This document shows positions 46,079-57,624 of a DNA stretch of 64,000 nt, one piece after another (position 1 is the first letter of the stretch; every line of letters starts with the position of its first letter). The notes under the pieces were generated by a model. That model was not told the DNA's origin. It did no database searches and was given only the letters and a program-made list of their open reading frames with translations. The translations under genes and the position numbers were made by a program. The stretch is taken from assembly GCF_002067275.1 (NCBI RefSeq), contig NZ_MVQX01000054.1, forward strand, positions 62,001 to 126,000, read 5' to 3'. Origin of the DNA: Methanomethylovorans sp. PtaU1.Bin093. Lineage in GTDB: Archaea > Halobacteriota > Methanosarcinia > Methanosarcinales > Methanosarcinaceae.

Positions 46079-46163
46079 CGACGAGAGGGGGATTCGAACC
46101 CCCGAAGTGCGTAGCACCACAGGATTAGCAATCCTGCGCCATACCGGGCTTGGCTATCTCGTC
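46079..46163 (-). tRNA. tRNA-Ser (GCT anticodon)
   Basis: An 85-base gene on the minus strand forms a full class II cloverleaf: 7-bp acceptor stem GACGAGA/TCTCGTC, D arm with GCCAAGCCCGG, anticodon stem CAGGA/TCCTG with loop TTGCTAA holding GCT, a long variable arm and a T arm with GGTTCGAATCC; the unpaired 3' base is G. The CCA end is not encoded. The long variable arm identifies serine. It follows SRP RNA by 70 bases; a TATA-like GTTAAATAC near 46210 may be its own promoter. Confidence 0.95.
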
Positions 46164-46233
46164 ATGAAAAATGAAAGCTTTCCCCAACTTCCGTTCCTAA
46201 TGTTATCTATGTATTTAACGCTTTTCCATAAAG

Positions 46234-46548
46234 TGGCAAGCACGCCTCAGGTCGCTGTCATTCACATACGCAAATGATCTGCAGTCTCGCCTCCACCCCG
46301 CAACCCTGCAAGCGACGGTTGTTCATGGTTGGTCTGCTCCCTTCCGGGCCTGAACTGGTCCCCACGATCAAGATATAAGAACATGTTCTCCAACAAGCCC
46401 TTAAATCAACATCATCCAAGCAGGACGGAGTTTCTCAGTTGAAACCTCAGGTTTGAGGATGATCCAGACATCTTCCATCGGCTTCGTCCCCCGCATATCG
46501 GCGATTTCGGGTTATAGATGACGCCGGACTATCCGGACTAGCCTGCCA
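46234..46548 (-). ncRNA. Signal recognition particle (7S) RNA
   Basis: About 315 bases read on the minus strand. The universally conserved helix-8 loop region is present as GTTCAGGCCCGGAAGGGAGC (around 46330-46355), and the 5' end (TGGCAGGCT) pairs with the 3' end (GCTTGCCA) to form archaeal helix 1. The Alu-domain GTCCGG motifs are near the 5' end. The size and long internal helices fit archaeal 7S RNA, which guides nascent secretory and membrane proteins with SRP19 and SRP54. Exact ends are estimates to within a few bases. Confidence 0.93.
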
Positions 46549-55236: not shown

Positions 55237-55492
55237 CTTGTGTTTCGCCTCGTTTTGTATTAATCCTTGGTATTTATAATATATCTGAGAAGATATAAAT
55301 GTATTGAGGTAATAATCATGATAATGAGCTATAGCATAATTACATTTTAATCTATTCGACGATCTATTAAATGCACTTTCTTGCATGTCGTTCTTTTAGA
55401 GGGTACATATGATGGAGTTCGACATTTCCCGTTAAATACATCGATACTTGTCATTGCTACGTGAAAAATAACCTCTTTGAGACCACAAAAGA
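55237..55492. other. Intergenic region between KaiC-like and S-layer genes
   Basis: No gene seen in these 256 bases. It should hold the promoter of the minus-strand KaiC-like gene (TATA-like AT-rich stretches around 55275-55310) and upstream activator sequence for the highly expressed S-layer gene. The open frame extension of the KaiC-like gene into 55237-55386 is Asn/Tyr-rich and judged non-coding. Confidence 0.5.
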
Positions 55493-55500
55493 TTTAAAAG
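55493..55500 (+). promoter_or_regulatory. TATA box of the S-layer gene
   Basis: TTTAAAAG preceded by purine-rich ACAAAAGA (BRE-like) fits the archaeal promoter. It predicts a transcript start near 55521, thus a leader of about 150 bases before the S-layer ATG at 55672, unusually long for an archaeon. Confidence 0.6.
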
Positions 55501-55523: not shown

Positions 55524-55645
55524 TAATCCAATATGACGGGATTAAGAGGGTGATGATGAGAACTTCGTCAATGGGCGAACATGGCGTTCCCCTGATGAAG
55601 GTCTGAGGGCGCATAAGCGTTCTAATCCAATGATCCTCACTCTTA
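55524..55645 (+). promoter_or_regulatory. Structured 5' leader RNA of the S-layer gene, switch-like
   Basis: The leader can form several strong helices: hairpin A, CTTCGTCA (55563-55570) with TGATGAAG (55593-55600), continued inward by GGG/CCC and GAAC/GTTC around loop ATGGC; hairpin B, GGGCGC (55607-55612) with GCGTTC (55617-55622) around ATAA. GGATTA (55539-55544) can pair either with TAATCC at 55524-55529 or with TAATCC at 55623-55628; the second closes A and B in a three-way junction. GAGGGT/ATCCTC (55546/55633) is a further competing pair. A strong Shine-Dalgarno GGAGG (55661-55665) follows. Structure is from inspection; function is inferred. Confidence 0.6.
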
Positions 55646-55671
55646 GATATACAAACTAACGGAGGAAAATA

Positions 55672-57624
55672 ATGAGTAAATTCGCAGCAGTAACAATTGC
55701 TACACTTATGCTGATGGCAGTATTCGTCTCAGCGGCCAGTGCAGCAACTTCTGTAAACACCGTGGAGATAAGAAGCCCGGTGTTCAGCGGCAGCAGTTTA
55801 AGCACAATCCCTGTGAATTTTGACTATACTGAATTCGCAGGATTCTATTATGATATCGACGACGACATTGGTTCCGAGAGCCTGAGAATCGATAATACAA
55901 AGGCTAGCGGAAGGACCATCCAAGAGGATGGACTTATTTACGAAACAACCATCCAGCAGATCGGTTATGCATATGATGGCTGGAATGGGGAATTCCCCAA
56001 GATGGGCTTCCTTGCACAGGAATATGTGCCAGTCAACAACCAGCCTGACGTTCTGTCCAAGCTCCTGCTTGACAGTGATGACAAGTACACTCTGAGGGTC
56101 GGTCAAAGTCTTGACCTTGGCGAGGGCTACACGCTCACACCAAAGCAGATAGATGTCGAAGGTGACAAAGTCTGGCTCGAGCTGAGCAAGGACGGCGAAT
56201 ACCTTGATGACCAGGTCATTACAGTAACTGGTACTGATGTCGAGAACAGCACCTGGAACTACGAAGAGGACGATGTAGGCGGCGAGGATGATGTAGTCAT
56301 CATGAGAGCCCACGTTAACGAAGTATTCCAGGGTCAGGTCGACAGCCTTGCAGTTATCGAGGGTCTGTGGCTCATCTCCAACGAACCAATGGAGATCGAG
56401 ACTGATGACACATTCGATGCACTCGAGGTTACTACAATAGGCAGCGATTTCCTTACACTGACAAACAAGAATTCCATAGCTCTTACCAAGAACAAGGATA
56501 TTGTCCTTGCAGGTGATCTGAAGATCAAGACCGCTGATTCAAACGATCTGGTTTTCTACTTCTATAAGGAGATCACCGCACCAGGAACCTATCAGGTAAG
56601 GGGTTCAGTTGCAACAGGCAGCGCTAACTGGGATTACAGCTCATTCGCAGGCTTCTACTATGACCTGGATTCAAACCTGGCATCTGAAGAAATGGATGTC
56701 ACTGTGACCGGTACCAGGTCAATCTCACAGGATGATCTTGTATACACTACCACTATCCAGAACGTAGACTACGAGTATGATGGATGGGTTGGAACCTATC
56801 CAAAGATGGGCTTCCTCGCAGAAGAGTATGTACCAGTCAACGATCAGCCAGATGTACTCTCCAAGCTCCTGCTTGACAGTAATGACAAGTACACTCTGAG
56901 GGTCGGTCAGACGCTTGACCTTGGCGAGGGCTACACGCTTACACCAAAGCAGATCGATGTCGAGGGCGACAAGGTCTGGCTCGAGCTGAGCAAGGACGGC
57001 GAATACCTTGATGACCAGGTCATTACAGTAACTGGTACTGATGTTGCGAACAGCACCTGGGACTACGAAGAGGATGATGTAGGCGGCGAGGATGATGTAG
57101 TCATCATGAGAGCCCACGTCAACGAAGTGTTCCAGGGTCAGGTCGACAGCCTTGCAGTTATCGAGGGTCTGTGGCTCATCTCCAACGAACCAATGGAGAT
57201 CGAGACTGACGATACCTTCGATGCACTCGAGGTCACAACAATCGGTGACGACTTCCTTACACTGACAAACAAGGATGACCTTACACTGTCCAAGAATAAG
57301 GAAATCAAGATCGCTGGCAACATGTTCTTCAAGGTTGCAGATGCAAATGAACTCCGCTACTACCCATACGCTGAGTATGTCATAGGCGGCAATGTAACTG
57401 AGCCAACCGAGCCAACAACTCCAACCGAGCCAACCGAGCCAACAACTCCAACCACTCCAACCGAGCCAACAACTCCAACCACTCCAGGTGTTAACGAGAC
57501 TCCAACCACTCCAGGTGTCAACGAGACTCCAACCACACCACCAACTGAGGACACTCCAGGCTTTGAGGCAATCTTCGCAGTTGCTGGTCTCCTGGCAGTT
57601 GCATACCTTGTCAGAAGGAACTAA
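55672..57624 (+). CDS. Major S-layer protein, two-domain, PGF-CTERM
   Basis: The cell-surface lattice protein typical of Methanosarcinales. A signal peptide (cleavage after VSAASA, near residue 25) leads to two tandem S-layer duplication domains (DUF1608-like; about 30-300 and 300-570) that repeat with a period of 268 residues and are nearly identical for about 150 residues. N-x-S/T sequons such as ENSTW and ANSTW are candidate AglB sites. A Thr/Pro/Glu-rich stalk follows, then the PGF-CTERM signal (TPGFEAIFAVAG, hydrophobic span, RRN). GGAGG precedes the ATG. The gene is a strong candidate for the most abundant protein of the cell surface. Confidence 0.95.
   Translation: MSKFAAVTIATLMLMAVFVSAASAATSVNTVEIRSPVFSGSSLSTIPVNFDYTEFAGFYYDIDDDIGSESLRIDNTKASGRTIQEDGLIYETTIQQIGYAYDGWNGEFPKMGFLAQEYVPVNNQPDVLSKLLLDSDDKYTLRVGQSLDLGEGYTLTPKQIDVEGDKVWLELSKDGEYLDDQVITVTGTDVENSTWNYEEDDVGGEDDVVIMRAHVNEVFQGQVDSLAVIEGLWLISNEPMEIETDDTFDALEVTTIGSDFLTLTNKNSIALTKNKDIVLAGDLKIKTADSNDLVFYFYKEITAPGTYQVRGSVATGSANWDYSSFAGFYYDLDSNLASEEMDVTVTGTRSISQDDLVYTTTIQNVDYEYDGWVGTYPKMGFLAEEYVPVNDQPDVLSKLLLDSNDKYTLRVGQTLDLGEGYTLTPKQIDVEGDKVWLELSKDGEYLDDQVITVTGTDVANSTWDYEEDDVGGEDDVVIMRAHVNEVFQGQVDSLAVIEGLWLISNEPMEIETDDTFDALEVTTIGDDFLTLTNKDDLTLSKNKEIKIAGNMFFKVADANELRYYPYAEYVIGGNVTEPTEPTTPTEPTEPTTPTTPTEPTTPTTPGVNETPTTPGVNETPTTPPTEDTPGFEAIFAVAGLLAVAYLVRRN
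56000..57273 (+). repeat. Internal tandem DNA duplication within the S-layer gene
   Basis: Two copies of about 470 bases, 56000-56469 and 56804-57273, lie exactly 804 bases apart. They include long identical runs, for example about 70 bases around 56170-56240 and 56974-57044, even at third codon positions. The repeat codes for the matching half of each S-layer domain; flanking parts of the domains are much more diverged. Confidence 0.85.

Follow-up and report, generated by a model that had tools for sequence, protein, structure and literature searches.

The leader of the principal S-layer gene of Methanosarcinales is a previously unnamed RNA element that marks this gene. The window, the whole stretch of 64,000 nucleotides analysed here, belongs to a Methanomethylovorans-like genome and contains one copy of the leader, and comparison of its sequence across lineages points to a structured cis-acting RNA with compensatory changes in two of its helices, P2 and P4. 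S-layer proteins are among the most abundant proteins of Methanosarcinales and, to our knowledge, few structured mRNA leaders have been described in Archaea. The original prediction of a structured, conserved, cis-acting S-layer leader is borne out by folding beyond shuffle level and by the covariation of P2 and P4, and the length of about 150 nt that it derived from the TATA box holds if transcription starts at G55523 (a leader of ~149 nt). Its statement that no named RNA family covers this region also stands, as Rfam 15 returned nothing above the gathering threshold for the window leader or for the leaders of ten other lineages. The features of the leader and its gene in the window are as follows.

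55481-55499, + strand: promoter box GACCACAAAAGATTTAAAA (BRE + TATA), near-invariant among leaders of the order; the TATA-like ATTTAAAA occupies 55492-55499
55523, + strand: predicted transcription start, the G of a conserved pyrimidine-purine step immediately 5′ of P1, placed by promoter geometry
55524-55544, + strand: P1 hairpin, near-invariant, with TAATCC at 55524-55529, loop AATATGACG and GGATTA at 55539-55544
55546-55553, + strand: 5′ strand of P2, GAGGGUGA, the junction-closing helix, identified by folding, alignment pairing and covariation
55555-55557 with 55633-55635, + strand: inner extension of P2 (GAU with AUC), from folding; clade specific
55559-55604, + strand: P3 hairpin, with a 5′ half (CUUCGUCAAUGGGCGAA) whose sequence the family conserves
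55606-55623, + strand: P4 hairpin, with strong covariation among genera
55623-55628, + strand: downstream TAATCC copy, unconserved and outside the common structure
55637-55644, + strand: 3′ strand of P2, UCACUCUU, which differs among lineages but keeps its complementarity
55661-55665, + strand: ribosome binding site (RBS) GGAGG, 16 nt 3′ of P2
55672-57624, + strand: S-layer gene with ATG at 55672, encoding a signal peptide, two PF07752/DUF1608 stretches (PF07752, E 6e-156) and a PGF-CTERM anchor

P2 is followed by an A-rich stretch with the strong RBS.

The window leader folds at -46 kcal/mol (z = -2.88 against dinucleotide shuffles). In single-sequence folding, 31 of 32 representative leaders fold better than the shuffle mean, with a median z of -2.7 for the leader and -3.0 for the P3 segment. 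Pairing was scored on a covariance-model alignment (A4) of 93 leaders, 91 of them distinct, which was fitted to the structure and is hence biased towards it. Among these 91 distinct leaders, the named structure has 85.6% paired cells (76.4 when shuffled), changes on both sides of a pair in 178 cells (59.8 when shuffled) and a covariation score of 0.210, compared to 0.095 when shuffled and 0.093 for its best slid version. In A4, both-side changes occur in all eight pairs of P4 and in three pairs of P2. The eight core pairs of P2 also form in 16 or 17 of 17 leaders in a sequence-only MAFFT alignment, which together with single-sequence folding provides two checks that are independent of the structure bias of A4. 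Both P2 strands have changed in Methanosarcina (GAGGGAA with UUCUUCUU) and pairing is kept. The strength of the P2 duplex exceeds shuffles at p ≤0.05 in 15.6% of leaders, a test of little power. Misalignment in plain MAFFT alignments caused RNAalifold to miss P3 and much of P4. P1 is near-invariant: an inner pair is broken in 9 of 91 leaders, the two outer pairs are broken in 19 and 31, and its core has no compensatory changes in A4; covariation therefore neither backs nor contradicts P1 pairing. Conserved sequence is found mainly in the P1 loop and on the 5′ side of P2 and P3; the 3′ strands vary yet still pair. An extended form of P1 using the 5′ CUCUU is unconserved beyond the genus. In one leader (L068, G006 contig C12), the 5′ arm of P1 is present as a tandem duplicate (GTAATCTAATGTAATCTAATTTGAAGGGAT).

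The leader is widespread in the order. A blastn search with the 221-bp leader gave matches in 41 of 60 related genomes, spanning five families. A GTDB-wide pattern scan for promoter and P1 recovered 51 loci from Methanosarcina, Methanolobus, Methanomethylovorans, Methanococcoides, Methanosalsum, Methanoperedens, GoM-Arc1, Argoarchaeum and further MAGs, all archaeal and of this order except for one contig labelled Sumerlaeota. That contig (PWGE01000152.1, locus L108), filed under a Candidatus Sumerlaeota bacterium MAG, bears an archaeal S-layer gene with its leader and is probably mis-binned. A covariance model (R1, built from alignment A3) matches 110 of 186 genomes of the order, in Methanosarcinaceae and in Methanoperedens-, GoM-Arc1- and Argoarchaeum-type lineages. 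Nearly always there is one leader per genome, though the genomes encode several S-layer paralogues, and in M. acetivorans and M. barkeri it sits on the single major paralogue, the one whose transcript has been mapped (PMC3361143). Several Methanosarcina have a second S-layer paralogue with a diverged leader (GTAAACCAATTTTCGGGATGAGG; L165-L169) that is similar in its 3′ half. The genomic association is consistent: every leader with a readable downstream ORF precedes an exported surface protein with a signal peptide, and the remaining leaders lie at contig ends, in one masked record or in two tandem orphan copies. The two tandem orphans have promoter and P1 intact and no S-layer ORF behind them (L248, L075, L076 (G045 contig C8), L100 (QMVM01000208.1)).

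In a 295-genome sample of the phylum, R1 found the leader in the order itself and in two small genomes of another class only, and a third such genome was found later. In these three genomes (G238, G243 and G208; loci L202, L203, L249, L250 and L253), the leader has the same promoter box, a P1 variant (UAACCC/GGGAUUA), P2 and a strong RBS. The downstream protein has a signal peptide, a Thr-rich stalk and a PGF-CTERM, and is without PF07752. G238 and G243 have no PF07752 protein at all, with M. acetivorans positive as the control. The leader is thus kept before an S-layer-like protein outside PF07752, indicating that it tracks the role of the protein and not the protein family, and autogenous control by the S-layer protein is thereby disfavoured. 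Its presence in the other class may reflect either transfer or an ancestral leader whose coding region was replaced.

The 5′ end of the transcript can be placed by promoter geometry. Of 117 leaders, 108 have a pyrimidine-purine step immediately before the P1 arm, at an offset of 40-44 from GACC. Where other genes use this promoter box, their start codon lies at an offset of 40-43, indicating that transcription begins at or upstream of that point. These genes look leaderless and stand behind GACCACAAAAGATTTA or its one-mismatch form (L244 in G005, L245 in G003, L242 in G043 and L247 in G039), and comprise a class I methyltransferase-like gene and acylphosphatase-like genes. By this geometry, +1 in the window would be G55523, with P1 running from +2. 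Rohlin et al. (2012) mapped the slmA1 5′ ends of M. acetivorans and M. barkeri to 159 and 154 nt upstream of the ATG (PMC3361143). In the M. acetivorans and the presumed M. barkeri genome, both distances lead to the final C of TAATCC, ~6 nt downstream of the predicted start. Given that the sizing ladder in that study was unrelated DNA (PMC3361143), a mapping error of ~6 nt is plausible, and by promoter geometry the published Methanosarcina ends may plausibly be off by this amount. The original prediction had set 55540 as the position 3′ of which a mapped start should not lie; the published ends, equivalent to 55529, are indeed upstream of it but fall inside the P1 arm.

What the leader does is best explained by a constitutive role, to which we give about an even chance, in which it would stabilise the mRNA and keep it translatable for the most abundant transcript. 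Stabilisation was the alternative offered in the original prediction, and it is the one favoured here. In this mechanism, the 5′-terminal P1 and the compact junction closed by P2 would shield the mRNA from 5′-end-dependent decay, presumably by exonucleases, while the RBS would stay clear of stable structure, and one gene could thereby supply the most abundant protein. The constitutive-looking architecture, the unsequestered RBS, the 5′-terminal hairpin and the restriction to the most expressed paralogue together fit such a stabilising leader. Expression of slmA1 exceeds that of mcrA and pta by 2-10 fold (PMC3361143), and long mtaA and mtaC 5′ UTRs are cited in PMC5378194 as contributing to transcript stability in a cold-adaptive methanogen. 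Other observations speak against a stabilising role. In the P1 loop and the P2 and P3 5′ strands, sequence conservation exceeds what a plain stabilising hairpin needs, which suggests a sequence-specific partner. In addition, the mapped Methanosarcina 5′ end, if exact, would lose most of the P1 5′ arm, and the RBS is predicted to be paired in some Methanosarcina-type leaders (L008, L107).

The same conservation pattern is the basis for a tentative second explanation, well short of an even chance, in which a protein acting in trans or a ligand, other than the S-layer protein, binds the P1 loop and the P2 and P3 5′ strands and tunes translation or stability to the demands of growth or secretion. 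Conservation is focused on exactly these segments, whereas the 3′ strands change freely but pair, and Methanosarcina S-layer expression is reported to vary with growth mode (PMC12369344). However, the leaders have no conserved expression platform, neither the alternative helix of the original prediction nor RBS sequestration. A sensor that matches archaeal S-layer synthesis to demand via a dedicated trans factor or ligand is similarly doubtful. If true, it would be an order-wide regulatory RNA dedicated to the cell envelope, kept in another class despite a different S-layer protein family, and the first archaeal regulatory RNA of this kind that we know of.

It is unlikely that the conserved block acts as DNA, be it a core promoter, a downstream promoter element or an operator, and not as RNA. 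In favour of a DNA element, conservation is highest in the promoter box and in the inverted repeat of P1, the published 5′ ends lie inside the P1 region and the P1 core is without compensatory changes. P2, P3 and P4, however, lie ~23-121 nt past the predicted start and are held by pairing and not by sequence, and the same box occurs at other genes without the downstream block. 

The 5′ strand of P2 in the window resembles a Shine-Dalgarno sequence followed by AUG (55546-55556). As a near-complement of the 16S 3′ end, this strand (GGAGGGUGAU) could serve as an upstream ribosome standby site that is masked and unmasked by P2, which we consider very unlikely. Nearly all lineages have GAGGG, and the P2 3′ strand of one family reads AUCACC, like the 16S 3′ end, but the GGUGA part is lost in Methanosarcina and P2 pairing explains the conservation equally well. 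An upstream ORF from the AUG in GGGUGAUGA has similar first codons in Methanosarcinaceae by eye, but its length, stop and frame are unconserved and all codon positions vary. A short leader peptide in Methanosarcina (MVKPLKC) is lost in M. acetivorans, which has ACG for ATG.

It is highly improbable that the leader doubles as the source of a small RNA acting in trans. The orphan leaders in two related MAG records would fit such a product and the conserved 5′ strands could pair with targets, but orphans are uncommon and may be duplicates undergoing decay, and nearly all copies stand directly before an S-layer gene.

The original prediction had also proposed a two-way switch, in which GGATTA at 55539-55544 pairs with either TAATCC copy (55524-55529 or 55623-55628) and thereby opens or closes a three-way junction, with the logic of a riboswitch or thermosensor. 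The letters are present in the window as described, and in two congeners with TGATCC the pairing is still available via G-U. A three-way junction with two stable hairpins (P3 and P4) is also retained, but its closing helix is P2 (55546-55553/55637-55644) and not the pairing of GGATTA with 55623. Among aligned leaders, the latter helix is at shuffle level in both covariation (0.065 versus 0.067) and paired cells (65.8% versus 66.0%), so that covariation analysis, the proposed check, supports P2 and P4 by two-sided changes but not this helix. All six of its pairs form in 4 of 91 distinct leaders, compared to 48 of 91 for the upstream hairpin P1. For the window, a GGATTA partner of equal or greater strength arises in ~10% of shuffles, which is within chance. 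When any downstream partner of the GGATTA arm was sought without an alignment, the median chance rank was 0.5 across 109 leaders. The downstream copy reads TAATCC, TGATCC, TAATCT or TGATAC within the genus and is absent in other genera. It is unconserved and shows no compensatory change. In addition, P2, which is conserved, crosses the pairing of GGATTA with 55623, and as nested helices they exclude each other. Given these comparisons, alternating pairing of GGATTA with the two TAATCC copies is extremely improbable.

RBS pairing is not above shuffles and no partner of the RBS is common among the leaders, and RBS sequestration as a conserved feature was rejected. Some pairing suggested in Methanolobus for transcripts extended by 2 nt at the 5′ end and by 5 nt into the coding region was largely gone with the transcript start at the predicted position. 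The S-layer leader is therefore like riboswitches and RNA thermometers in being a structured 5′ UTR upstream of the RBS, but differs from them in having neither a conserved alternative pairing of the proposed kind, as for a riboswitch, nor a conserved helix that sequesters the RBS, as for a thermometer.

Long structured leaders before S-layer genes are known from Lactobacillus slpA and Thermus slpA, where they have been proposed to give high and stable expression. These leaders are bacterial and have no known homology to the archaeal leader. The Thermus leader is a case of autogenous binding, which is disfavoured for the archaeal leader given that it is kept when the protein family changes. 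Within Archaea, the slmA1 5′ UTR of M. acetivorans and M. barkeri is the same element: upstream of the major S-layer gene, both promoter and leader are conserved (PMC3361143). Rohlin et al. compared three Methanosarcina species, described the 5′ UTR as conserved with several possible RNA structures and called its role unknown (PMC3361143). Our analysis adds the order-wide extent, the covarying architecture, the usual single copy per genome and the context of a non-homologous S-layer protein. The RNA family, its order-wide range, its covariation, its near one-per-genome dedication and its non-homologous context appear to be new, as none was found in the literature searched. The mtaA and mtaC 5′ UTRs share with it a long leader on a highly expressed methanogen gene in the same archaeal family, but no relation in sequence or structure to the S-layer leader, which is conserved across the order, has come to light. 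Archaeal leaders bound by L7Ae at k-turns, as described in PMC5539422 and PMC6298567, may resemble it in UGAUGA- and CUGA-like stretches near the junction. By eye, P3 has UGAUGA and YUGA, candidates for a tandem G-A k-turn motif, on its two sides in several genera; other families lack these stretches, and the C/D-like pair is unconserved outside one family. A box C/D sRNA (UGAUGA, CUGA) was rejected, as Rfam sR39 scores 14.1 bits against a cut-off of 50 and the D-like box is unconserved.

In uncultured methanogens and in anaerobic methane oxidisers, the leader should serve as a sequence mark of the principal S-layer gene. For methanogen genetics it offers a strong, naturally occurring expression cassette, and for work on post-transcriptional control in Archaea an RNA that can be tested. 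Elsewhere in the window, Rfam places an archaeal SRP RNA followed by a tRNA at 46079-46548 on the - strand.
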